A stretch of 64,000 nt of DNA from Bacteroidales bacterium (GTDB lineage Bacteria; Bacteroidota; Bacteroidia; Bacteroidales; JAIOZK01), in NCBI GenBank assembly GCA_021738625.1, contig JAIPBS010000013.1, positions 1 to 64,000 of the forward strand, in the 5' to 3' direction. The notes beneath the pieces are model-generated. The model had not been told where the DNA came from. It searched no databases and saw only the letters and a list, made by a program, of their open reading frames with translations. Of the stretch, positions 20,021-32,484 are shown piece by piece. Position 1 is the stretch's first letter. Each line of letters starts with the position of its first letter. The position numbers were made by a program, and so were the translations under genes.

Positions 20021-21472
20021 TTATTTCCTTTTCTTATCAATCAGGTTGTTGTTCTTATCGTACAATGCAATCTCCAGCGGCATTTGTCCGAGAGCATGTG
20101 TTGCGCAGCTCAGGCAGGGATCGTAAGCCCTGATGGCTACTTCCACGGCATTCATCATGCCTTCTGTGATCTCCGACTGACCGTTCATCCAGTCTTTGGC
20201 AATGTGGTTCACCGCCAGGTTCATGGGTTCATTGTTGTTGGTTGTTGAAACAATGAGGTTGGCCATGGTGATCTCGTCGCGTTCATTGATCTTGTAGTGA
20301 TGAAACAGGGTACCGCGGGGGGCTTCGATCAAACCGACACCTTCATTCTGTTTGGTTCCCTTGGTCACCAGGTCATCGCCCTGTATATCCGGATCGTTCA
20401 GCAATTCCTTGATTATCTCTGCCGAGTGCAGTGTTTCGATCAGGCGTGCCCAGTGATAATGCATGGTCATGTTGTTGGGTTTGCCGTTGGTATATGCCTT
20501 GAACTCTTCAAAAGCCTTTTGCGCCTTTGGGGTGGGGATGAATTCCGCCGTATTCAGGCGCGCCAGTGGACCTACCCTGTACCAGCCTTCTTGCTTGCCA
20601 TATTCAAGCATATAAGGAAATTTCATATAGCTCCAGTTGCGTACTTCCTCGCCGATGTATTCCAGGTAATCCTGATAATCCACATCGTGCAGGATTTTCT
20701 TGCCTTCCGCGTCAACGGCGCGCAGCACCCCATGATAAAGATCGAGTGCGCCGTCTTTCCTCACCAGGCTCAGGTGGTTGGATGGGAAAGTGGCGTAATT
20801 GTCGATCAGGTCTTTGTGCTTGCTGTGATAATCTTTAAAGAAATCCAGTGAAGCTTCCGACCATTCAATCATCTTATCGATGTTCATCGGATCATCTCCT
20901 TTGAGAAAGAAATCTTTTTCCTCGTCGCTGAGATTTTTGTTGATCCCTCCGGGTATGGCGCCTGTTCCGTGGATTTTCTTACCGGCTGTGGCGCGGATAA
21001 TTTCCTGTCCGTATTTGCGCATCATCACGCCCATCACGGCCAGGTCTTTGTGTTCTTTGGCCACACCGATCACATTCCTGATAGCCGGGTCGGCATCAAT
21101 ACCAAACAGCAGGTCGGGTGATACAAGGTGAAAGAAATGCAAGGCATGTGACTGGAACATTTGTCCGTAGTGCATCAAACGGCGCATTTTTTCGCCTGCG
21201 GGGGTAAGACCTTCTCCGGTACCTGCGCCCACGATCACGTCCATGGCTTTGGCTGCGGCCAGATGGTGTGAAACGGGACAAATTCCGCAAAGACGCTGTA
21301 CCAGCACGGGAGCTTCCCAGTAAGGGCGTCCCTGTGCAAATCTTTCAAAACCGCGAAATTCAACAATATGTAAGCGACTCTGAACTACATTGTTATTGTC
21401 ATCCAGGTGAATGGTTACTTTGCCGTGACCTTCAACCCTGGTGACTGGTTCTATTGTTATTTTCTTCGTCAT
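20021..21472 (-). CDS. hoxH: [NiFe]-hydrogenase large subunit HoxH (group 3)
   Basis: A 483-residue catalytic subunit. Nickel ligands are in LCGICPVSHH (Cys62, Cys65) and DPCLSCATHA (Cys453, Cys456). Processing should occur after His459 and remove a 24-residue tail. The RVEGHGKVTIHLD start and the length match HoxH of NAD-reducing group 3d enzymes and related group 3 hydrogenases. It performs the reversible H2/proton reaction in the cytoplasm with HoxY. Its neighbours hoxY (14 bases upstream) and the protease (3 bases downstream) confirm the assignment. The subgroup (3d) is an inference. Confidence 0.96.
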   Translation of the reverse strand: MTKKITIEPVTRVEGHGKVTIHLDDNNNVVQSRLHIVEFRGFERFAQGRPYWEAPVLVQRLCGICPVSHHLAAAKAMDVIVGAGTGEGLTPAGEKMRRLMHYGQMFQSHALHFFHLVSPDLLFGIDADPAIRNVIGVAKEHKDLAVMGVMMRKYGQEIIRATAGKKIHGTGAIPGGINKNLSDEEKDFFLKGDDPMNIDKMIEWSEASLDFFKDYHSKHKDLIDNYATFPSNHLSLVRKDGALDLYHGVLRAVDAEGKKILHDVDYQDYLEYIGEEVRNWSYMKFPYMLEYGKQEGWYRVGPLARLNTAEFIPTPKAQKAFEEFKAYTNGKPNNMTMHYHWARLIETLHSAEIIKELLNDPDIQGDDLVTKGTKQNEGVGLIEAPRGTLFHHYKINERDEITMANLIVSTTNNNEPMNLAVNHIAKDWMNGQSEITEGMMNAVEVAIRAYDPCLSCATHALGQMPLEIALYDKNNNLIDKKRK

Positions 21473-21486
21473 ATCTTATTACGATT

Positions 21487-22035
21487 TTAATCAAATTTAA
21501 CAACTTCGTAAGGCAACTTCATCTCATTTCCTGTAACCAGGGCTGCCACGGCTTCCCAGATCAGTTCGGCCCTGGGTGGGCATCCCGGAAGGTAATAGTC
21601 GATCTTCACCACCTCATGGCAGGGATAAACCCGGTCGGTGATCATGGGAAGTTCATCATCATTCGGAAGAATACCTTCCTTATTGTTTTCAACCGATGGA
21701 ACGCCAAGGTAGGCTTCCGCGATGCATTCTTTCACAGGTATGCCGTTGCGCAATGCAGGCAAACCGCCCATGATGGCGCATTCGCCGACAGAAACCAGGA
21801 TTTTGCAATTCTTCCTGAAGTCTTTCAACACGTGGGCGTTTTCGCTGTTGCAAACGCCGCCTTCGATCAAACCGATATCGCAGGGTTTGGTAAACTCCTT
21901 GATATCGTCGATCGGGGATTTATTAAACTCAACCAGCTCGATCAGATCGAGTATCTTTTCATCAATGTCGAGTAAGGACATATGGCATCCAAAACAGCCT
22001 GCCAAAGATGTTGTTGCTACTACTGGTTTACTCAT
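21487..22035 (-). CDS. hoxY: [NiFe]-hydrogenase small subunit HoxY
   Basis: A 182-residue small subunit of the short group 3 type. Cysteine motifs for one proximal [4Fe-4S] cluster are visible: AGCFGCHMSLLDID, EGGVCNSEN, VGECAIMGG and LPGCPPRAE. It has no signal peptide, so the enzyme is cytoplasmic. It passes electrons from the Ni-Fe site to the HoxU/HoxF diaphorase. A GGAGG sequence about ten bases before the ATG is a Shine-Dalgarno-like site, unusual for Bacteroidota. The gene is 27 bases after hoxU. Confidence 0.95.
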   Translation of the reverse strand: MSKPVVATTSLAGCFGCHMSLLDIDEKILDLIELVEFNKSPIDDIKEFTKPCDIGLIEGGVCNSENAHVLKDFRKNCKILVSVGECAIMGGLPALRNGIPVKECIAEAYLGVPSVENNKEGILPNDDELPMITDRVYPCHEVVKIDYYLPGCPPRAELIWEAVAALVTGNEMKLPYEVVKFD

Positions 22036-22062
22036 TATATTGTACCTCCATCAATTTTTGAT

Positions 22063-22764
22063 TTAAACTACTTTTTCGATATCGCTGCCAATGGCTTCTT
22101 TGTCGAAGCGTCTGGTTCCGATGGGCTGGCTGAAGCCTGTGCCTTTTTTCAGGATAGAGCCAACCGGGCAATTGTCGGTTGCTTCCTGGATTTTTTCCTC
22201 GGAAAGCCCTGCGGCCAATTCGTGGTCAATGTTGATCTCCACTTTGTGCCCTCTTTCCTGAAAAGCAAATATGTTCTTGCCGTCCTCAGTTTTAATGGTT
22301 CTGATGCAGCGTTTGCATTTGATGCAACGGTTCCTTTCGATCCACAACCTGCTGTCTTGTGTGTCGGGTGTCTTGATGGGGAATTCGTAAGGATAACGTG
22401 GCACCATCATCTGGAAACGGTATGCCAGGGCCTGCAGTTCGCAGTTTCCGCTTTTTTCACATGCCGGGCAGAAGTGGTTTCCTTCAACAAACAGCATCTC
22501 AACGATGGCTTTGCGCATGTCGTTCAGCTCTGAAATGTCGTTCTCGATTTCCATACCCTGCTCAACCGGTGTGGTGCAGGCGGTCATGATACGACCGGCG
22601 TTTTTAATATTACAAATACGGCATGAGCCTGCCGGGATTACATCGCGCAAATGGCAAAGGCTGGGAATGTAAACGCCATTATCTGCTGCGGCATCTACCA
22701 GATTCTGGCCGCGCTCGGCTACACATTCTTTTCCATCTATCGTAAATTTAACTTTTTCGCTCAT
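22063..22764 (-). CDS. hoxU: Hydrogenase diaphorase subunit HoxU
   Basis: A 233-residue Fe-S protein homologous to the N-terminus of NuoG. It carries a plant-type [2Fe-2S] site (PSLCHLRDV ... GSCRIC ... TACTTPV). The His/Cys3 [4Fe-4S] site reads HFCPACEKSGNCELQ. A further [4Fe-4S] site is formed by RCIKCKRCIR and DNCPVGS. It links HoxF to HoxY electronically. The set of three clusters fits HoxU of soluble NAD-reducing hydrogenases. Gap to hoxF is 22 bases. Confidence 0.95.
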   Translation of the reverse strand: MSEKVKFTIDGKECVAERGQNLVDAAADNGVYIPSLCHLRDVIPAGSCRICNIKNAGRIMTACTTPVEQGMEIENDISELNDMRKAIVEMLFVEGNHFCPACEKSGNCELQALAYRFQMMVPRYPYEFPIKTPDTQDSRLWIERNRCIKCKRCIRTIKTEDGKNIFAFQERGHKVEINIDHELAAGLSEEKIQEATDNCPVGSILKKGTGFSQPIGTRRFDKEAIGSDIEKVV

Positions 22765-22786
22765 ATCTGATGTTGTATTTTATTGT

Positions 22787-24583
22787 TTACAAATTGGGTT
22801 TTCTTCCGACATAATCGCATGATTCTTCAACGGCTGATGCCAGGTCGAAGCCCGTGTCGAAGTCCTCATCCATTTTCACATGTTTCTCGTATTCCTCACG
22901 GAAGTTTTCGATGGATGTCAGGATGGGGTTTGCGGCTGTCTGTCCCAAACCACAGCGGTTTGCCATTTTGTTAAATTTGGTCCAGTTTTTCAGTTCGTCA
23001 ATCTCTTCCTTACCGGCTTTGCCCGACATGATCTTCAGGAGCTTGTCTTTGAGGATAACCGTATTGGCACGGCAAACCGTACATGAACCACATGATTCTT
23101 CAATAAAGAATTCGGTAAAGTTTAGTACGATATCTCTAAGCAGGTTCCTGTTATGTCCGATGATGATCATAGAACCGCCCGTGGGCAAGTCTTCAAAACA
23201 AATCGTTCGTTTGAAATCCCTTGGGCTGATCAAAGTGCCCGAGGGTCCGCCAACCTGGATGGCCTTTACGTCCTCCGCTCCTACCATTTCGATGATATCA
23301 CGGATACGCATCCCCCATTCGATTTCATAAACACCCTGGTATTTGCAATCGCCTGAGATACTGAGCAGTTTGGTTCCGGCGCTTTCGCGCGATCCCATCA
23401 TGGTAAACCAATCGGCTCCTTTTTCAATGATCCTTACCACGCTGCACAATGACTCAACATTGTTTACCACGGTAGGTTCGTCCATATAACCCTTTTGTAC
23501 CGGGAAAGGAGGACGGTTTCTGGGTTCGCCTCTTTTTCCTTCGCAAGATTCGATCAAAGCGGTTTCCTCACCGCAAACATAGGCGCCTGCTCCGAATTGA
23601 ATTCGGATATCGAAATCAAAACCTTCCTTGCCCAGGATGTTTTTACCCAGCAGGTTGGCTTCACGCATTTCGTTGAGAACGCTTTCGAGATAATTCTTCA
23701 GGTATTTGTATTCGTAGCGTAGGTAAAGAATCCCCTGTTTGGCATCCAGAGCATAACCGGCAACGGCCATTCCTTCAAAAACAAGCTTTGGTTTTTCGGT
23801 AAGTAATACGCGTTCTTTGAATGTGCCGGGTTCGCCTTCGTCGGCATTGCACATCAGGTAGGTTTCTTCCGATTGCGTTCTGCGGCAGAAATCCCATTTC
23901 AATCCAACCGGGAAACCGGCACCGCCGCGTCCCCTGAGGTAAGAATCTTTCACAATGCCAACAACTTCGTCGGGAGTCATACCAGTAACCTTTTTCAAAG
24001 ATGTACCGGTTTCATAGTCTGAGAAAAGAACCGGTCCTTTTTTTCTGATGTTGTTGAACACCATCGACTTTACAAGGTCGGAGGCATTGTGGCCGTCTCC
24101 GTATTTTTCAACCATTTCATCAATGGTTTTTCCGGCTTTCATGTCGAGCACCAGGTCCTTAACTTTGTAGGGATCGAGTTTGGTGAACACCTTACCGTTG
24201 ATAATGGCGGCGGGTTCCTGGTCGCTCATTCCGATACAGGAAGTGGAATACAGGCCGATTTTTCCGTCTTCGCTAAGGGATTCAAATTTGCAACCGGCTT
24301 CTTTTTCAAAAGCTTCGGCCACATCTGCCCTGCCCATCATGTCGGCTACCGCACTATTGTTCAGGTAAACCGTGTAATCCCCGATGTTATCACGTGTAAA
24401 GAAGTGATAAAAAGACAAGGTCTGAATCACATCCACTTTGGAAATGTTCAGGGTCTTGGCAACTTCTTCTATGGCCTCATCCGGAATGTGGCCATTTTTG
24501 CACTGGATTTCAAGTAGAATATCCATCAACCGGGTTGCGTCATTGTTGTATTCTTCACAAATACTTTTAACACTTTTTCCCAT
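22787..24583 (-). CDS. hoxF: NAD(H)-binding diaphorase subunit HoxF (NuoE-NuoF fusion)
   Basis: A 598-residue flavoprotein. Residues about 1-150 are NuoE-like, but of the four [2Fe-2S] cysteines only one is left (TSCIGMSDQEPA); the first pair is replaced in YLNNSAVADMMG. The NuoF part has the FMN/NAD sites GRGGAGFPVGLKW, GEPGTFKER and GAGAYVCGEETALI, and the [4Fe-4S] cysteines in ESCGSCTVC and NRCGLG. It exchanges electrons between NAD(H) and H2. First gene of the operon, with a Rex-type operator upstream. Length is close to the roughly 600 residues of HoxF in soluble hydrogenases. Confidence 0.95.
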   Translation of the reverse strand: MGKSVKSICEEYNNDATRLMDILLEIQCKNGHIPDEAIEEVAKTLNISKVDVIQTLSFYHFFTRDNIGDYTVYLNNSAVADMMGRADVAEAFEKEAGCKFESLSEDGKIGLYSTSCIGMSDQEPAAIINGKVFTKLDPYKVKDLVLDMKAGKTIDEMVEKYGDGHNASDLVKSMVFNNIRKKGPVLFSDYETGTSLKKVTGMTPDEVVGIVKDSYLRGRGGAGFPVGLKWDFCRRTQSEETYLMCNADEGEPGTFKERVLLTEKPKLVFEGMAVAGYALDAKQGILYLRYEYKYLKNYLESVLNEMREANLLGKNILGKEGFDFDIRIQFGAGAYVCGEETALIESCEGKRGEPRNRPPFPVQKGYMDEPTVVNNVESLCSVVRIIEKGADWFTMMGSRESAGTKLLSISGDCKYQGVYEIEWGMRIRDIIEMVGAEDVKAIQVGGPSGTLISPRDFKRTICFEDLPTGGSMIIIGHNRNLLRDIVLNFTEFFIEESCGSCTVCRANTVILKDKLLKIMSGKAGKEEIDELKNWTKFNKMANRCGLGQTAANPILTSIENFREEYEKHVKMDEDFDTGFDLASAVEESCDYVGRKPNL

Positions 24584-24747: not shown

Positions 24748-24950
24748 TTAAATGTTTTTGTTTTTCACGAAATATGCAATCTCCTCCAGTATATTGATGA
24801 TGTTAAATCACGCCGGACCTGTACCGGTTTCAAATTACACATTCTGGCCAGGTCATGGGAATAGATGTGCGCCTCCTCCAGGTATCTGTATTTTAACAGC
24901 AACCTTCGGTAGCGGCTTAAACGTTGTACTGTCCTGACAGGTAGTTTCAT
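24748..24950 (-). pseudogene. Internally deleted second rex gene
   Basis: From the ATG at 24950 the frame reads MKLPVRTVQRLSRYRRLLL ... IYSHDLARM ... VQVRRDL, the N-terminal DNA-binding region of Rex (compare LPHKTIERLSQYRRALL ... VQVRRDI in the intact rex at 31849). The in-frame product stops after 61 codons. In another frame the same DNA encodes IINILEEIAYFVKNKNI and a stop at 24748, which aligns with the very C-terminus of Rex (DMITSLEKVAFFVKTH). The NAD-binding Rossmann domain, roughly 145 codons, is therefore missing and the ends are joined out of frame. A -7-like TACATTTG (24975-24982, minus) still precedes it. Confidence 0.75.
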
Positions 24951-25128
24951 CAGCACTGAATCCTTTTAGGCCTGCAAATGTATCTACCATTTGTATGTAT
25001 GTAGCACGGCTTTATAATTTAAATTCATTATCAATAGACCTGGTTGGCAGAATTTTTCTGGAAAAACAAGGAGCGGCAAATAATCGGGTTTCCTATTCGT
25101 TGGGAATAGTTAAGAATAAAGGTATGAT

Positions 25129-25150
25129 GTCACCTTACATTAAAGGTGAC
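25129..25150. promoter_or_regulatory. Inverted repeat at the hypF promoter (candidate operator)
   Basis: GTCACCTT (25129-25136) and AAGGTGAC (25143-25150) form a perfect 8-bp inverted repeat with a 6-base spacer, directly upstream of the -7 box. It is not a Rex-type site, so hypF-hypC-hypD-hypE may answer to another regulator. Confidence 0.55.
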
Positions 25151-25151
25151 T

Positions 25152-25159
25152 TATCTTTG
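25152..25159 (+). promoter_or_regulatory. hypF promoter -7 element
   Basis: TATCTTTG matches TAnnTTTG and lies 9 bases before ATG 25169 and 15 before ATG 25175. The transcript would have almost no leader. This supports a start at 25169/25175 over an upstream one. Confidence 0.65.
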
Positions 25160-25168
25160 CATTCTGCT

Positions 25169-27457
25169 ATGGAAATGAAGAAAGAAAATCAGAACAATAT
25201 ACAAGCTTTGGATATCAGTATTGCTGGCCTGGTGCAAGGTGTGGGGTTCAGGCCTTTTATCTTTAAACTTGCTTTGGATCACGGACTAACCGGATGGGTT
25301 GAGAACCGGAACGACGGTGTGAAGATCCATGTGGAAGGAAATTCACCGGATATTGAATCGTTTTTCGGCTCCATCAAAGAAAAAGCACCTGTTGCTTCTC
25401 AGATTCATCAAATCAGCCAAACACCTTCCTCATTTAAGCATTATTCCGATTTCCGTATCGTCAAAAGTGAAAATATATCAAATGATGTTACAGAGATTTG
25501 CCCGGATATTGCGGTTTGTGACCAATGCCTGACGGACATGCGCCAACAAGAACATCGCCTGCGCTATCCTTTTATCAATTGCACAAACTGTGGTCCTCGT
25601 TTCACCATTATTAAAGACCTGCCTTATGACCGTGAGAAAACGACCATGCAGCCTTTTGTTATGTGCGAGCTTTGTCATGAAGAATATACCAATATGCTCG
25701 ACAGAAGATTTCATGCCCAACCAGTTGCCTGCAAGCGTTGCGGACCCAAATACGGTTTTCATAACAAACAGCTTCAAACAGATGATCTTGAAGAAATACT
25801 GAAGAACGCATCACAGTTGATCGATAATGGAGAAGTTTTGGCCATCAAAGGGCTTGGAGGCTTCCACTTGGCCTGCAACGCGCTGGACAACAAGGCTGTA
25901 AAAGAATTACGAAGCGAAAAAAACAGGGATGGAAAACCTTTCGCGGTGATGTTTCGGGATCTTGAAACCTGCAGGAAATTTGCCCATTTGAGTGAAAAAG
26001 AGAAAAAACTGATCACCTCCTGGAGAAAACCCATTGTGCTTTTGAAAAGTAAAAAAGAACTGGCAGAGGATGTTTGCGTGGGCTTCGATACGGTGGGCGC
26101 CATGCTGCCATATATGCCGATACACTATTTGTTATTCGATAAATTGAAAACCGATGTGATCGTGCTCACCAGTGGCAACATTTCCGACGAACCCATTCTG
26201 ATCGATAATCAACTTGCAGGCCGTGAACTGGGAAAGATCACTGATCATTTTCTTGATTATAACAGGGATGTCCACAATCGAACGGATGATTCGGTGACCA
26301 TGGTGGTCAACAACAAACCTCGCCTGCTGAGGCGTTCACGGGGGTATGTTCCCAACCCGGTGAATACTTCCCTTGATGTGGAGGGCATCATGGCTACCGG
26401 TGCCGAGCTTGTCAACTGTTTCTGCATAGGCAAGAACAAACAGGCGCTTTTGAGCCAGCATATCGGTGATCTGAAAAACCTGGAAACCCTGGATTTTTAT
26501 ACCCAGACCATCGACAGGTTTAAGCAGATGTTCAGGGCAGAGCCCAAGTTGATCGCTGCGGATATGCATCCGGATTATCTTTCCAGCAGATGGGCTGCTG
26601 AACAGGATTTGCCGGTTGTTAAAGTTCAGCATCACCATGCGCACATCGCTTCCTGCATGGCCGAACATGAACTGGACGAAGAAGTGATTGGGATTGCAAT
26701 GGATGGTGTTGGTTACGGTTCCGATGGCCATATCTGGGGTGGGGAATTTCTGCGTTGCGACCTGAACGACTATAAGCGGTATTTTCATCTCGAATACATT
26801 CCCATGCCCGGCGGCGATGCGGCAACTAAGCATCCCTGGCGGATGGCGGTATCTTACCTGTATCATTATTTCGGTGAAGATTTTCTGAAAGAGGATATAC
26901 CTTTCTTAAATAAGATCGATCCGCATGAATTGTCTTTGGTCCGGGGCATGCTAAAAAACAACATGAACAGCCCGCTAACTTCGAGCACGGGCAGACTGTT
27001 CGATGCAGTTGCAGCGCTCACCGGTCTTTGTCTCGACTCATCCTTCCATGCGGAAGCTCCCATGCGGCTTGAAAGCATTATTGGTAGCAACCTCACAGAT
27101 GCATACAGTTTCAAGATTGAAAATAATACCATCAGCCTGAAGCCTGCTTTCGAAGAAATACTCAGGGATATTGCACAGAATGAGGATGTCGGGACCATAT
27201 CGGCCAGGTTTCACAATACCGTTATTAATATTAATTTTGAAGCCGCAAAAGCGATCAGCGAAGAGAGTGGTTTGAATAAGGTGGTTCTTTCGGGAGGAAC
27301 CTTTCAGAACCGCTATCTGCTCGAAAAAACTGAAAAGCTTTTACAAAAGAACGCATTCAACGTATACACCCACGGCCGGATTCCTGCCAACGACGGCGGT
27401 CTCGCGCTCGGGCAATTGTTGATTGCTGCAAAAAGAAGGAGTTTACAATGTGTTTAA
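25169..27457 (+). CDS. hypF: Carbamoyltransferase HypF, hydrogenase cyanide-ligand synthesis
   Basis: A 762-residue protein from the Met at 25169 (25175 also possible). Domains in order: acylphosphatase-like (VQGVGFRPF), two zinc fingers with four CxxC pairs (CDQC/CTNC and CELC/CKRC), a YrdC-like domain (AIKGLGGFHLACNA ... RPIV-type region) and a Kae1-like carbamoyltransferase domain with the HHHAH metal motif. It transfers carbamoyl from carbamoyl phosphate to the C-terminal Cys of HypE for Fe-CN formation. Overlaps hypC by 10 bases. Upstream in-frame codons cross the promoter and are rejected. Confidence 0.95.
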   Translation: MEMKKENQNNIQALDISIAGLVQGVGFRPFIFKLALDHGLTGWVENRNDGVKIHVEGNSPDIESFFGSIKEKAPVASQIHQISQTPSSFKHYSDFRIVKSENISNDVTEICPDIAVCDQCLTDMRQQEHRLRYPFINCTNCGPRFTIIKDLPYDREKTTMQPFVMCELCHEEYTNMLDRRFHAQPVACKRCGPKYGFHNKQLQTDDLEEILKNASQLIDNGEVLAIKGLGGFHLACNALDNKAVKELRSEKNRDGKPFAVMFRDLETCRKFAHLSEKEKKLITSWRKPIVLLKSKKELAEDVCVGFDTVGAMLPYMPIHYLLFDKLKTDVIVLTSGNISDEPILIDNQLAGRELGKITDHFLDYNRDVHNRTDDSVTMVVNNKPRLLRRSRGYVPNPVNTSLDVEGIMATGAELVNCFCIGKNKQALLSQHIGDLKNLETLDFYTQTIDRFKQMFRAEPKLIAADMHPDYLSSRWAAEQDLPVVKVQHHHAHIASCMAEHELDEEVIGIAMDGVGYGSDGHIWGGEFLRCDLNDYKRYFHLEYIPMPGGDAATKHPWRMAVSYLYHYFGEDFLKEDIPFLNKIDPHELSLVRGMLKNNMNSPLTSSTGRLFDAVAALTGLCLDSSFHAEAPMRLESIIGSNLTDAYSFKIENNTISLKPAFEEILRDIAQNEDVGTISARFHNTVININFEAAKAISEESGLNKVVLSGGTFQNRYLLEKTEKLLQKNAFNVYTHGRIPANDGGLALGQLLIAAKRRSLQCV

Positions 27458-27711
27458 GCATACCTGCTAAAGTAGAACAAATAGAAGGCTATTTTGCCCG
27501 TGTAACAGTGGGCGGAGCCACTTATCAAGCCAACCTGCAAATGCTCGATGATGTGAAAGTGGGCGATTATGTTTTGTTGCATACCGGTTTCGCCATACAA
27601 AAACTCAACGAAGAGGAAGCCAAAGAATCCCTGGAGGTTTTTGAGGATTTTAAAAAACTGAACGAACAACTGGATGAAGAGGAAAAAGATAAAGGCGAAC
27701 GAATCGTATAA
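27448..27711 (+). CDS. hypC: Hydrogenase assembly chaperone HypC
   Basis: An 87-residue chaperone beginning MCLSIPAKV. Cys2, which binds the Fe(CN)2CO precursor and the large subunit, is exposed after Met removal. The central VGDYVLLHTGFAIQKLNEEEA is the family signature. The C-terminal tail is strongly charged. It works with HypD and hands the iron group to HoxH. The 10-base overlap with hypF implies coupled translation. Confidence 0.95.
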   Translation: MCLSIPAKVEQIEGYFARVTVGGATYQANLQMLDDVKVGDYVLLHTGFAIQKLNEEEAKESLEVFEDFKKLNEQLDEEEKDKGERIV

Positions 27712-27725
27712 CTATCCGCGCTTTC

Positions 27726-28805
27726 ATGATTAAATTCATAGATGAATATAGAGACAGGGAGATTGTTGGTGAATTTGTTGAACGGATCAGAAACATCTCG
27801 AAAAAGCCCGTTAATTTGATGGAAGTTTGCGGCGGACACACCATGGCCATTCAGAAATTCGGCATTCCTTCCCTCCTACCCGCTCACATCAATCTTTTGT
27901 CGGGACCGGGCTGCCCGGTATGCGTATCGAGCCGGCAATTCATCGATCATGCCGTGGCATTAAGCCGCTTGAATGATACTGTAATTGTTACTTTCGGCGA
28001 CCTGATCAGGGTGCCTGGCTCAAGCTCAAACCTTGATAAAGAAAAAGCCTCCGGTGCAGATGTCCGGATTGTTTATTCCATTTTGGATGCTTTGCAAATC
28101 GCGCAACAAAATCCTGACAAGAAGATCATTTTCCTGGGTATCGGATTCGAAACCACTGCCCCCGGAACGGCTATTGGCATGCAGCAGGCAAAGCAAAAAA
28201 AACTTAATAACTTTTTCCTTTTAAGCTCGCACAAGATCATGCCTCCCGCCATGAAGGCATTGATAGATGAAGGTGTGAACATCAGCGGTTACATTGCACC
28301 AGGGCATGTGAGCACCATCACCGGTTCGAAGATCTATGAAGAACTATCTGAAAAATATAAAGTTGGCTGTGTGATCTCGGGTTTTGAACCCGTTGATCTG
28401 CTCAAAGCCATTTATATGCTGGTGAGGCAGTTTGAAGAAGAAAGGCCTGCTGTTGAGATCGCCTATAAACGTGCGGTAAATCGCGAAGGAAACATCAAAG
28501 CACAAAAGGCTCTTGAAGAAGTATTCATATTGAAAGAAGACTGGTGGAGGGGTTTAGGTGTGCTGCCTGAAAGCGGTCTGCAACTCAATGAAAAATACCG
28601 GGCTCTCGATGCCGGGAATTTCCAGGTTGAAATCGAGCCTACCCGGGAAGACAAAGGTTGCATTTGCGGTGAGATTTTAAAAGGTTTGAATACGCCTAAG
28701 GACTGCAAGCTGTTTGGCACGGCCTGCACCCCCCAGGACCCGGTCGGGGCCTGCATGGTAAGCCACGAAGGAGCCTGCGCAGCCTGGTATAGATACAACA
28801 GATAA
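27726..28805 (+). CDS. hypD: Hydrogenase Fe-cofactor scaffold HypD
   Basis: A 359-residue Fe-S protein. Family motifs are VCGGHTM, GPGCPVCVSS (redox/iron-binding cysteines) and GFETTAPGTA. A C-terminal cysteine group (GCICGE ... KDCKLF ... TACTPQDPVGACMVS) holds the [4Fe-4S] cluster. It assembles Fe(CN)2CO with HypC, HypE and HypF. It starts 14 bases after hypC and ends two bases before hypE. Confidence 0.95.
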   Translation: MIKFIDEYRDREIVGEFVERIRNISKKPVNLMEVCGGHTMAIQKFGIPSLLPAHINLLSGPGCPVCVSSRQFIDHAVALSRLNDTVIVTFGDLIRVPGSSSNLDKEKASGADVRIVYSILDALQIAQQNPDKKIIFLGIGFETTAPGTAIGMQQAKQKKLNNFFLLSSHKIMPPAMKALIDEGVNISGYIAPGHVSTITGSKIYEELSEKYKVGCVISGFEPVDLLKAIYMLVRQFEEERPAVEIAYKRAVNREGNIKAQKALEEVFILKEDWWRGLGVLPESGLQLNEKYRALDAGNFQVEIEPTREDKGCICGEILKGLNTPKDCKLFGTACTPQDPVGACMVSHEGACAAWYRYNR

Positions 28806-28807
28806 AA

Positions 28808-29821
28808 ATGGACAAAAAGATACTACTCGGACACGGAAGCGGAGGAAAGCTCACAAGGGAACTGATCGAAAATCTATTCGTCAAACATTTCAGCAATGAG
28901 GTGCTCGACCGGCAAAGTGATTCCGCTGTTTTGGACGTTCCGTCAGGGAAAATGGCATTCACTACCGATTCATTTGTGGTAGATCCTATTTTTTTCCCGG
29001 GAGGCGATATCGGCAAGCTGGCCATTGCCGGAACGGTGAACGATCTGTCCGTGTCGGGTGCGAAACCGCTTTGCCTGAGTTGTTCCTTTATTCTGGAAGA
29101 AGGCTTTCCACTTGCAGAGCTCGAAAAGATCGTGATTTCAATGGCCAAAGAAGCCCGCAAGGCGGAAGTCAGCATTGTTACCGGTGATACCAAAGTAGTG
29201 AACAAGGGCAAGTGCGATAAGGTGTTTATCAATACCAGCGGAGTTGGCCTGTTAAATGCTTCTTTCCAACACATCAGTACAGGTGATTATATACAGCCCG
29301 GCGATAAAATACTGGTCAATGGCAGCCTGGCCGATCACGGCATGGCCATCCTGGCTGCCCGCAACGAAATGAACCTGCATGCGGATATCGAATCCGATTG
29401 CGCTTCCCTGAATCATTTGATAAGAAAAGTGCTGGAAGCTGGTGTCCACGTTAAATTTATGCGTGACGCCACCCGGGGCGGGGCGGCCACGGTGCTTGCC
29501 GAGCTGGCTGAAAACAAACCCTTCGGCCTGGAGATCACCGAATCGAAAATCAAGATAGGTGAGAACGTAAGAGGAATATGCGAAATTTTGGGTTTTGATC
29601 CGCTTTATGTGGCCAACGAAGGAAAAGTGATCCTGGTTGTTTCAGAGGAGGATGCTGGCAAGGCACTTGAGATCATGCAATCGGATGAACTTGGAAAACA
29701 GGCGACCATCATCGGAGAGATCGTCAATCAACACCCGGGCAAAGCATGGCTCAATACAGGGATCGGTGGCAAACGCATCATCGATATGCTTGCCGGGGAA
29801 CAGCTACCGCGCATCTGTTGA
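28808..29821 (+). CDS. hypE: Hydrogenase cyanide-forming dehydratase HypE
   Basis: A 337-residue PurM/AIRS-fold protein. It opens with LLGHGSGGKLTRELI, has ATP-binding motifs (DSAVLD, TVNDLSVSGAKPL) and DATRGG, and ends in PRIC. The terminal cysteine is the carbamoyl/cyano carrier, so the C-terminus is intact. It dehydrates HypF-delivered thiocarboxamide to thiocyanate. Its stop abuts the stop of the convergent cysteine-rich gene with no bases between. Confidence 0.96.
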   Translation: MDKKILLGHGSGGKLTRELIENLFVKHFSNEVLDRQSDSAVLDVPSGKMAFTTDSFVVDPIFFPGGDIGKLAIAGTVNDLSVSGAKPLCLSCSFILEEGFPLAELEKIVISMAKEARKAEVSIVTGDTKVVNKGKCDKVFINTSGVGLLNASFQHISTGDYIQPGDKILVNGSLADHGMAILAARNEMNLHADIESDCASLNHLIRKVLEAGVHVKFMRDATRGGAATVLAELAENKPFGLEITESKIKIGENVRGICEILGFDPLYVANEGKVILVVSEEDAGKALEIMQSDELGKQATIIGEIVNQHPGKAWLNTGIGGKRIIDMLAGEQLPRIC

Positions 29822-30223
29822 TCAAGTACCGTATTCCCGGTGAAATTTACGCAGGGCGGATTGCAGATCTTCAAACATCACATAATGATTCTTGCATCCC
29901 CTGCGGGAACAAATGCTGACCACTCCTCCCATATCAATCAGGAACTTAACCATTGGAGCATCACAAATCTTGCATGGAATGTCACTGTTCAGGCTGTCGC
30001 CGCAATGGGGACAATAAAATTCAACAATTTCTTCATTCGCAATGTCAATTTCGCTTTCATGATCGTAGCAACCATATGTTGAACATAAGCGTATGTTGCC
30101 ATCCCGTCCGTTTACCTTGATTTTTGAATGAATACTCGGCAAATTGTTTATGAGGTTTTTGTAATCCATAAGCGAATTGCCGCAAGACATACATTTAACG
30201 TTAAGTGAGATTTGCTTGGACAT
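29822..30223 (-). CDS. Ten-cysteine protein with internal repeat, unknown function
   Basis: A 133-residue cytoplasmic protein with cysteines at 11/14, 47/52, 71/74, 84/87 and 105/110. A CxxC ... CSxxGCxxH unit appears twice (LCSTYGCYDH near 47-55, ICSRRGCKNH near 105-113), suggesting an internal duplication that binds zinc or another metal. I do not recognise the family. It lies antisense between hypE and hypA, stop-to-stop with hypE. An AGGAGG sits nine bases before its ATG, a strong Shine-Dalgarno site rare in Bacteroidota. A link to hydrogenase metal handling is only contextual. Confidence 0.8.
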   Translation of the reverse strand: MSKQISLNVKCMSCGNSLMDYKNLINNLPSIHSKIKVNGRDGNIRLCSTYGCYDHESEIDIANEEIVEFYCPHCGDSLNSDIPCKICDAPMVKFLIDMGGVVSICSRRGCKNHYVMFEDLQSALRKFHREYGT

Positions 30224-30336
30224 TGGTATTTTCCTCCTTTTAAGTTTTTATATGGAATTAAGCATATGTAAATTTATGTTATTCAAAAAAGAAAATCAAG
30301 AATGACACCATATAAATAATCATTCTAAATTACTCA

Positions 30337-30371
30337 TTGTTAATTGTTTAACATGGTTAATTTATTAACAG
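30337..30371. promoter_or_regulatory. Two adjacent Rex-type operators at the hypA promoter
   Basis: TTGTTAATTGTTTAACAT (30337-30354) and TGGTTAATTTATTAACAG (30354-30371) each match TTGTTAA-N4-TTAACAA with one and two mismatches. They end eight bases before the hypA -7 box. Confidence 0.75.
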
Positions 30372-30378
30372 TTATTTG

Positions 30379-30386
30379 TACCTTTG
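30379..30386 (+). promoter_or_regulatory. hypA promoter -7 element
   Basis: TACCTTTG matches TAnnTTTG and lies 18 bases before the hypA ATG at 30405. Confidence 0.6.
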
Positions 30387-30404
30387 CAAAAAGAGCTGAA
30401 GCCC

Positions 30405-30746
30405 ATGCATGAAATGTCGATAGCCTTGAATATTGTTGAGATTTGTGAAGATGAAGTTAAAAAGGCCGGTGGGCAAGTAGTTAACCGGATAGAACTTGAG
30501 ATCGGCACCTTGTCCGGTGTAATCCCGGACGCTATGGAATTTGCCATACAGGAGGCTGTTAAAGAAACCGTACTTCAACAGGCAGAGAGAAAAATTCATC
30601 TAAAACAGGCAAAGGCACGTTGTCAAGAATGCGATCATACCTTTGACATTGATGACTTTGTTGCGGTATGCATTTCATGTGGTAGTTTTAAGACGGAAGT
30701 CATACAGGGTAAAGAGATAAAAATTAAATCTCTTGTGGTAAGCTAA
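30405..30746 (+). CDS. hypA: Hydrogenase nickel-insertion chaperone HypA
   Basis: A 113-residue protein beginning MHEMSIA; His2 with Glu3 is the known nickel site, which fixes the start at 30405 rather than 30384. Zinc cysteines are Cys73, Cys76, Cys89 and Cys92. It delivers Ni to HoxH with HypB. Two Rex-type operators precede it, and hypB follows after 73 bases. Confidence 0.95.
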   Translation: MHEMSIALNIVEICEDEVKKAGGQVVNRIELEIGTLSGVIPDAMEFAIQEAVKETVLQQAERKIHLKQAKARCQECDHTFDIDDFVAVCISCGSFKTEVIQGKEIKIKSLVVS

Positions 30747-30819: not shown

Positions 30820-31701
30820 ATGTGCGGAACTTGCGGATGCGGTGAAGAAGGAACCGTTAGTATAAGAAAACCCGGTGAAGACACCGGTGAACACACACAT
30901 TCTCATAGCCATGCTCATGATCATCAAGGACATGCTCATGAGCACAGCCATCAGCATAAACATGCCCACAGTCACGCGCATGAGGGGCATCAACAACATC
31001 ATGAGAGCAGCCACGGTCATGAACATGGCGGCAATGGTCATCATCACCGTCATGAGCGGGAGATACAGTTAGAGATCGATGTCATGCAGAAAAACAATTT
31101 ACTGGCTGAAAGAAACCGGGGATATTTCGAGGCAAAACAAATTCTTGCATTGAACCTGGTCAGTTCTCCCGGATCAGGGAAAACTTCACTGCTCGAAAAA
31201 ACCATAAAGGATTTTAAATCTCAAAAAAAGATATACATCATTGAAGGCGATCAGCAAACCATGAACGATGCGGATCGCATTGAAAAGGCCGGTGCGCCTG
31301 TTGTACAGGTAAACACCGGAAGCGGTTGTCACCTGGATGCCGATATGATCAACAAAGCAGTGAAAATACTGGAAGTTGAAGATCATTCACTCTTATTCAT
31401 TGAAAATGTTGGCAACCTGGTTTGCCCAAGCCTTTTCAACCTGGGCGAACAAAAGCGTGTTGTTATTGTTAGCACAACCGAAGGGGAGGACAAGCCGATC
31501 AAATATCCCAATATGTTCCAGTCGTCGGATGTATGCATCATCAACAAAACCGATCTGCTACCCTACCTGGATTTTGATCTTGAAAAGATGAAAGAATATG
31601 CATTGCGCGTAAATCATCAACTCGAATTTATTGAAATTTCTGTGAAAAATGGAGAAGGCCTCAACAAATGGTATGCGTGGCTGAAAAACCTTTCTTTATA
31701 A
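30820..31701 (+). CDS. hypB: Hydrogenase nickel GTPase HypB with His-rich region
   Basis: A 293-residue GTPase. The N-terminal CGTCGCG offers a high-affinity Ni site (Cys2, Cys5, Cys7). Residues 25-78 contain 25 histidines, a nickel-storage stretch as in rhizobial-type HypB. GTPase motifs are SSPGSGKT (115-122), the metal-site ENVGNLVCP and NKTD. GTP hydrolysis drives nickel transfer with HypA. The large His store suggests adaptation to scarce or fluctuating nickel. Confidence 0.95.
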   Translation: MCGTCGCGEEGTVSIRKPGEDTGEHTHSHSHAHDHQGHAHEHSHQHKHAHSHAHEGHQQHHESSHGHEHGGNGHHHRHEREIQLEIDVMQKNNLLAERNRGYFEAKQILALNLVSSPGSGKTSLLEKTIKDFKSQKKIYIIEGDQQTMNDADRIEKAGAPVVQVNTGSGCHLDADMINKAVKILEVEDHSLLFIENVGNLVCPSLFNLGEQKRVVIVSTTEGEDKPIKYPNMFQSSDVCIINKTDLLPYLDFDLEKMKEYALRVNHQLEFIEISVKNGEGLNKWYAWLKNLSL

Positions 31702-31848: not shown

Positions 31849-32484
31849 ATGGATAAGAATAATTTGAGGCATCTTCCACATAAAACCATTGAAAGGCTTA
31901 GCCAATACAGGCGCGCTTTACTGCTTTGCCATGCCAATGGCAAAACCCATATTTTTTCCCACGAGATCGCCAAGATACAGCACATTACTGCTGTACAGGT
32001 GAGAAGGGATATTATGCTGATCGGTTATACCGGCACCTTGCGAAAAGGATACAATGTTGAAGAACTGATTGTTCTGATCGGAAAAATACTGGATACGGAA
32101 GAAGGCCTCAATGTAGCCGTTGTGGGAGTGGGTAATCTGGGCCGGGCCATCACCAATTATTTTCGGGGCAAGCGCACAAAACTCTCCATTGTGGCAGCCT
32201 TTGATAAAAATCCCGATAAGATAGGAAAGAAGTATTCAGGCGTTGAATGTTTTGATATCGCTGATCTGAAATCCCTCATTAAGCAAAAAGATATTTCGAT
32301 CGGGATCATCACCGTAACGCCCGAGTCTGCGGCAGAAGCCTGTAAGGCCCTGGTGGAAGGCGGTATCAAGGGCATTCTCAATTATACCCCCAAACCCGTA
32401 AATGTTCCTCCTCATGTTTACCTGGAAGAGTATGACATGATCACCTCACTGGAGAAAGTGGCTTTTTTTGTGAAGACACACTGA
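31849..32484 (+). CDS. rex: Redox-sensing transcriptional repressor Rex
   Basis: A 211-residue repressor. The winged-helix N-terminus reads LPHKTIERLSQYRRALL ... FSHEIAKI ... VQVRRDIMLIGYTG. The Rossmann fold (VAVVGVGNLGRAITNY, GxGxxG) binds NADH/NAD+. The C-terminal helix MITSLEKVAFFVK mediates domain swapping. NADH binding releases it from DNA. Operators of its type flank its own promoter and precede hypA and hoxF, which makes it the probable regulator of the hydrogenase block. Confidence 0.95.
   Translation: MDKNNLRHLPHKTIERLSQYRRALLLCHANGKTHIFSHEIAKIQHITAVQVRRDIMLIGYTGTLRKGYNVEELIVLIGKILDTEEGLNVAVVGVGNLGRAITNYFRGKRTKLSIVAAFDKNPDKIGKKYSGVECFDIADLKSLIKQKDISIGIITVTPESAAEACKALVEGGIKGILNYTPKPVNVPPHVYLEEYDMITSLEKVAFFVKTH

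Follow-up and report, generated by a model that had tools for sequence, protein, structure and literature searches.

A duplicated ten-cysteine protein encoded among the hyp genes of Bacteroidales belongs to an undescribed, predicted metal-binding domain family found beside several redox enzymes

The H2 output of anaerobes is set by NAD-linked and electron-bifurcating hydrogenases and by formate dehydrogenases. The Bfu hydrogenases and formate dehydrogenases contain a thioredoxin-like [2Fe-2S] subunit, NuoE/HydC (PF01257; PDB 8a6t_C, 7t2r_C and 7p5h_C; PMC9304861). In the HydABC enzyme of Thermotoga, a zinc hinge in HydB lets the bridge domain near HydC move (PMC9499530). A third relevant protein, HypA (PF01155), is a [NiFe] metallochaperone with a zinc domain. 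The protein described here, with ten cysteines in 133 residues, resembles each of these systems in part. Its domain is found at the C-terminus of some NuoE/HydC members, whereas the protein itself has no thioredoxin-like part. The HydB hinge is a cysteine-rich zinc site that may govern how a flexible domain close to HydC moves within a bifurcating enzyme, and the ten-cysteine protein is predicted to have comparable sites; however, the hinge consists of three cysteines and one histidine within HydB, while the ten-cysteine domain is either a separate protein or joined to NuoE/HydC, and the parallel is functional only. No account of this domain family was found in the open-licence literature.

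The gene lies in a 64,000-nucleotide stretch of a Bacteroidales genome (the window), within a block whose order is hypF-C-D-E, ten-cysteine gene, hypA-B, rex. The relevant features are as follows.

20021 to 24583, minus strand: hoxEF, hoxU, hoxY and hoxH, encoding an NAD-linked [NiFe] hydrogenase
24995 to 28805, plus strand: hypF, hypC and hypD (HypD by family match)
28808 to 29821, plus strand: hypE, tail-to-tail neighbour of the ten-cysteine gene, conserved as neighbour in relatives
29822 to 30223, minus strand: ten-cysteine gene, an open reading frame of 133 aa with an ATG start; stand-alone form of an undescribed double-zinc-ribbon-like domain
29825 to 30028, minus strand: second half of the protein, residues 66-133, with C71xxC74, C84xxC87 and C105x4C110 (from hhalign of the halves)
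30029 to 30223, minus strand: first half, residues 1-65, with C11xxC14 (invariant) and C47x4C52 (in 44 of 54 sequences, by column counts)
30224 to 30407: divergent intergenic region of about 185 bp, the ten-cysteine gene being head-to-head with hypA
30232 to 30237, minus strand: AGGAGG Shine-Dalgarno site of the ten-cysteine gene, present in most hyp/hox-linked orthologues
30408 to 30746, plus strand: hypA, divergent from the ten-cysteine gene
30820 to 31701, plus strand: hypB

An earlier sequence-only reading had placed the gene antisense to hypE and stop-to-stop with it inside the hyp block. The arrangement is exact: hypE ends at 29821 and the stop codon of the ten-cysteine gene at 29822, leaving no gap. 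The hox operon, divergent on the other side, comprises hoxEF-U-Y-H followed by genes for a small protein and a DHOD-like protein. The best PDB match of its HoxH is the NAD-reducing hydrogenase 5xf9_D (E 1.5e-161). The small protein encoded after hoxH has no Pfam match and is read as a maturation protease; the DHOD-like flavoprotein gene (PF01180; 18527-19501, minus strand) closes the operon. Loci L075 and L078 share this gene order, from hoxEF-U-Y-H through the small protein to the DHOD-like protein. Between hoxEF and hypF, a 63-aa ORF (24765-24956, minus strand) resembles the N-terminus of the Rex repressor, there being no space for the remainder, and is probably what remains of a rex gene; full-length rex is encoded at 31849-32484.

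The ten cysteines form five pairs, at positions 11 and 14, 47 and 52, 71 and 74, 84 and 87, and 105 and 110. The duplication suspected from their arrangement was borne out by aligning a profile of residues 1-66 with one of residues 62-133 (hhalign probability 96.4, E 1.4e-9). This alignment pairs C11/C14 with C71/C74 and C47/C52 with C105/C110; the remaining pair, C84/C87, lies inside an insertion present in the second half only. Among 54 aligned sequences, C11, C14, C71, C74, C84, C105 and C110 never vary, and 53 sequences retain C87. By contrast, C47 and C52 are both present in 44 and both lost in the other 10, which comprise copies from formate dehydrogenase, Nfn or NuoE loci as well as the orphan L068 and the hyp-linked L059. 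The domain can thus be defined by the duplicated halves and by the core C11, C14, C71, C74, C84, C87, C105 and C110, all of which the ten-cysteine protein has.

An AlphaFold2 model of the protein (mean pLDDT 87.5, pTM 0.78) is mostly beta, with good confidence up to residue 110. Residues 78-117 of the model superpose on the zinc ribbon of the RNA polymerase I subunit 7oba_I (1.4 A over 38 residues, Z only 2.5), and the part comprising 84-87 and 105-110 thus appears to resemble a zinc ribbon, weakly. Fold comparison gave no Foldseek match at E 0.001 or better, a result that is not taken to indicate a new fold. The model suggests that one zinc ribbon is made by C84, C87, C105 and C110. Conservation points to C11, C14, C71 and C74 as the ligands of a putative second metal site.

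No Pfam or NCBIfam model matched the protein above its curated cut-off, and PHROGs and PADLOC returned nothing significant. The closest scores went to HypA (PF01155; 13.5 bits against a cut-off of 28.9, the best relative seen, L008, reaching 26.0), CpXC (PF14353; 19.7 against 25.4), DZR (PF12773; 18.5 against 27.3, with weak matches, E up to 0.01, in 31 of 54 relatives) and the HVO_2753 small zinc finger (NF041909; 22.3 against 80). Weak matches of the family as a whole go to assorted zinc ribbons, and one NuoE-fused relative exceeds the cut-off of the generic Zn_ribbon_TFIIB model (PF13453) across its last 35 residues. CxxC knuckles are indeed common to the protein and the zinc-ribbon families (DZR PF12773, Zn_ribbon_3, Zn_ribbon_6, NF041909, PF14353 and PF13453), but none of these models spans the duplicated 133-residue protein or its Cys-x4-Cys-xx-His motif; membership in a known zinc-ribbon family, which would have refuted the sequence-only reading, is not what the searches indicate. 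A sequence search of solved structures gave no credible relative, the only low E-values being those of ankyrin entries (E 2.4e-6). These were discarded: they mostly have no stretch that passes alone and look compositional. The ten-cysteine domain thus defines a widespread, undescribed family of predicted metal-binding proteins.

The position within the hyp block, the zinc-type CxxC pairs and the weak PF01155 matches through the zinc knuckles, below the curated cut-off, could suggest a nickel/zinc chaperone similar to HypA and dedicated to the maturation of [NiFe] hydrogenases. However, the N-terminal Met-His-Glu nickel motif of HypA is absent from the protein, which begins MSKQISLNVKC, and from the aligned relatives shown. 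Moreover, the enzyme range is wider than that of HypA, close relatives being found at loci for Mo/W formate dehydrogenase-type enzymes, Nfn and HdrA-like proteins (see below), and most HypD-positive genomes of the order have no stand-alone gene. On motif and distribution, this explanation is rejected as highly improbable.

Four Bacteroidales MAGs have an orthologue at the same place, with 48-64% identity, confirming that the gene is real and not a chance reading frame. At loci L003 and L004, an extra gene, read as that of a PEP-synthase regulatory protein, stands between the ten-cysteine gene and hypE. Some form of the domain occurs in 74 of the 393 genomes of the order, and the stand-alone gene, counted as an open frame of up to about 200 aa with E under 1e-18, in 46. 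By tblastn of neighbours, 32 of these 46 carriers have a copy at hyp/hox: in 30 it lies within the hyp block, and in 2 it stands just upstream of hoxEF. Homologues are thus not mostly away from hydrogenase genes, and conservation of the position across many families of the order speaks against the suggestion that the gene was independently acquired.

HypD is found in 132 of the 393 genomes, most of which carry no stand-alone ten-cysteine gene; a role as general Hyp maturation factor was rejected on these figures (132 genomes versus 46). HoxH at 70% identity or more is present in 38 of the 46 carriers, versus a close HoxH in 9 of 34 HypD-positive non-carriers (Fisher p 7e-7; the 34 were hand-picked mainly for completeness, not at random, and kinship among genomes makes this p only a guide). 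Of the 32 genomes in which a copy is linked to hyp or hox, only G473, which is 84% complete, has no HoxH. The stand-alone gene therefore follows the NAD-linked HoxH and not Hyp as a whole. Since 9 of the 34 non-carriers examined have HoxH, the gene is not required for Hox.

In a phylogenetic tree, the NuoE-fused and the Nfn-linked groups each make up one side of a branch. The hyp-linked group does not: its label changes seven times, with at least three changes forced by supported branches. This scatter implies repeated gain or loss of the hyp position. It also weighs against the idea that a generic housekeeping zinc-ribbon protein was caught next to hydrogenase genes by chance, as a frozen accident in the gene order of Bacteroidales. 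Such an accident would be compatible with the orphan copies, since in 8 of the 46 genomes no copy has a visible neighbour encoding a redox enzyme (their loci are among L064/L065, L068, L069, L071, L073, L074, L084 and L088; some contigs are short), and with single-domain genes of the Marinimicrobia group, which mostly have housekeeping genes as neighbours (lysine, tRNA or others). It does not account for independent association with several redox loci, nor for gene fusions in other bacterial groups, and we regard it as very unlikely.

Wherever the 5' neighbour of a hyp-linked copy was identified (32 of 32 cases, MAGs included), this neighbour is hypA, hypB or hypF in head-to-head orientation; none of the 32 copies is co-directional with hyp. 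This geometry, and the likeness to an RNA polymerase subunit zinc ribbon, could be expected of a transcriptional regulator of the hyp operon that binds DNA or RNA polymerase. The likeness has the low Z score given above, however, and the 32 divergent regions have no inverted repeat in common: one candidate occurs in 3 of them (shuffles 0.7, maximum 4). The Rex-like repeat TGTTAA-N-TTAACA, considered as a shared operator, is present in the divergent region of the window, yet in only 3 of the 32 regions, and was rejected. No RNA elements were found upstream of the ten-cysteine gene. As the gene sits co-directionally in operons at other loci, and as NuoE fusions and kinase insertions (see below) are not DNA-binding contexts, a regulator of this kind seems unlikely.

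Close relatives at six loci (L063, L066, L070, L072, L076 and L080) adjoin, on the same strand, operons of the NuoE/NuoF/NuoG type. The large subunit encoded in these operons has a molybdopterin domain, identifying the products as bifurcating (Bfu) enzymes of the formate dehydrogenase type (Mo/W) and not hydrogenases. At L066, L070, L072 and L080, a gene read as rubrerythrin-like (ferritin-like) lies beside the ten-cysteine gene. Nfn-linked copies are found at L008, L081 and L102, and relatives at L082 and L083 adjoin HdrA-like genes. The form that adjoins NfnA/NfnB is a two-domain version of about 290 aa. The genome to which the window belongs has such a paralogue upstream of NfnA and NfnB (contig C13, 81286-83421; L008-L010 and L032), where NfnB itself has a divergent third copy of the domain fused at its N-terminus. 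A NuoE/NuoF/molybdopterin operon comes after these Nfn genes on the same strand.

Fusion of the domain to NuoE/HydC occurs in three bacterial groups: relatives from Acidobacteriota, the Marinimicrobia group and, within Bacteroidota, the single genome G172. The fused proteins have 278-291 residues, of which the first 150 correspond to PF01257 and the C-terminal half to the ten-cysteine domain; the match to solved NuoE/HydC chains is confined to the thioredoxin-like PF01257 part. Where NuoE is short (L070, L080 and L093), the domain is encoded by a separate neighbouring gene. At L117 it stands at the end of a sensory-type [FeFe] hydrogenase-like ORF, and at L105, L116 and L118 the gene lies directly beside a sensory-type [FeFe] hydrogenase-like locus, upstream of NuoE/NuoF. 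In other Bacteroidota, the domain is inserted in the ATPase domain of histidine kinases, between the N box and the G1 box, within an operon for ferredoxin, NrfD, cytochrome c, the kinase and two regulators. At L095-L101, where this operon is conserved, the kinases have a haem-type (CxxCH) sensor region. The kinase copies at L096, L099 and L101 have lost part of the second cysteine site, which is thus not universal.

These contexts establish that the family is not nickel- or hydrogenase-specific. The sequence-only reading had proposed an undescribed metal or redox factor for hydrogenase assembly. As an observation, this stands on firmer ground than when first made, in that the protein is undescribed, conserved and located at hydrogenase loci, and is probably a metal or redox factor. 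The restriction to hydrogenase assembly is too narrow: none of the formate dehydrogenase-type, Nfn and HdrA-like loci, NuoE/HydC fusions or kinase insertions needs Hyp maturation.

With rather less than even confidence, we favour the view that the ten-cysteine protein regulates soluble NAD(P)H/ferredoxin oxidoreductases or serves them as a docking module, with Hox as the enzyme served at this locus. All of the contexts fit a module able to attach to sensor kinases as well as to NuoE-like or flavin/Fe-S electron-entry units. A regulatory or docking role is the simplest common denominator. The domain, of about 115-130 residues in two similar cysteine-rich halves, is predicted to hold two Cys4 metal sites, with zinc as the most likely metal: C11/C14 would act with C71/C74, and C84/C87 with C105/C110, the C47-x4-C52 pair being optional. 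It may work with soluble enzymes that exchange electrons among NAD(P)H, ferredoxin, H2 and formate and, depending on the lineage, would do so fused to NuoE/HydC, encoded beside such operons, adjoining NfnAB, or made separately. In the genome studied, the partner would most likely be the Hox [NiFe] hydrogenase. We propose that the protein would bind the diaphorase on its NuoE-like (HoxE) side, and that binding might alter how active or how coupled the diaphorase is as the redox or metal state changes, with the cysteine pairs as the switch.

An assembly or structural role would account for these data almost equally well. The domain could hold NuoE/HoxE in place in a NuoE/NuoF-type diaphorase, or help to insert an Fe-S cluster or flavin, with no switching. 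The direct fusion to NuoE and the adjacency to NuoE/NuoF/NuoG and formate dehydrogenase genes are as expected for such a part, and separate transcription beside the hyp maturation genes would suit an assembly factor. Set against this, the kinase insertions and the NfnAB and HdrA-like linkages offer no NuoE to assemble, and nine of the examined genomes have Hox without the ten-cysteine gene. We regard the assembly or structural role as the main rival, with considerable doubt.

In an electron carrier, the Cys4 sites would bind iron in the manner of rubredoxin and pass electrons among ferredoxin, the diaphorase and their partners. The CPxC knuckles, the ferredoxin-linked enzymes nearby in most neighbourhood classes and the putative rubrerythrin-like genes at the four loci named above are what such a carrier might show. 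Against it, the spacing of rubredoxin cysteines differs from Cys-x4-Cys, the weak family matches are to zinc ribbons and not to rubredoxins, and the domain is inserted in histidine kinases, with loss of cysteines there. This explanation is quite unlikely; like the nickel chaperone and the DNA-binding regulator, a rubredoxin-like carrier fits fewer contexts than either a regulatory/docking or an assembly role.

The presence of one domain on NuoE/HydC, as a separate partner and in sensor kinases would provide a single handle for tests of how electron flow is gated. A more far-reaching proposal, which we put forward as speculative, is that an unrecognised redox- or metal-sensing switch domain is common to hydrogenase partners, NuoE/HydC, NfnAB and histidine kinases and tunes electron flow among NADH, ferredoxin, H2 and formate, its stand-alone form in Bacteroidales being a rare non-ribosomal gene kept under Shine-Dalgarno-dependent translation.

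The ribosomes of Bacteroidia generally make no use of Shine-Dalgarno sequences, the anti-Shine-Dalgarno being sequestered by bS21, bS18 and bS6; rpsU, rpsR and some other ribosomal genes are exceptions (PMC9976891). The AGGAGG of the ten-cysteine gene lies 9 nt before the ATG, with a predicted 16S-tail pairing of -12.2 kcal/mol (pairing energies use an assumed tail, since the search pattern used did not locate the 16S 3' end in this assembly). Such a site is as unusual as had been claimed: in the window, GGAGG or AGGAG stands upstream of a single one of the 46 ORFs of at least 150 aa. Among hyp/hox-linked orthologues, pairing is under -8 kcal/mol in 27 of 36 (75%), versus 6% of 218 control ORFs, and is typically -9 to -13 kcal/mol in the strong cases. 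Mechanical setting of control starts somewhat lowers the control scores; a more permissive motif count, which allows for this, gives a Shine-Dalgarno site in 33 of 55 family copies versus 18 of 313 controls, 1 of 25 hypA and 1 of 25 hypE genes. The site is common and not universal, copies L003, L004, L045-L047, L050, L077 and L079 having none. It would aid translation of a protein made divergently from the hyp operon, and its conservation makes the gene a test case, outside the ribosomal genes, of the bS21-dependent translation reported in Bacteroidia.

On the opposite side of the divergent region, hypA is listed as starting with a TTG codon (30384-30746), and a better start, an ATG, is found eight codons downstream, at 30408. 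A sequence resembling the TAnnTTTG -7 element of Bacteroidota (TACCTTTG) lies at about 30379.
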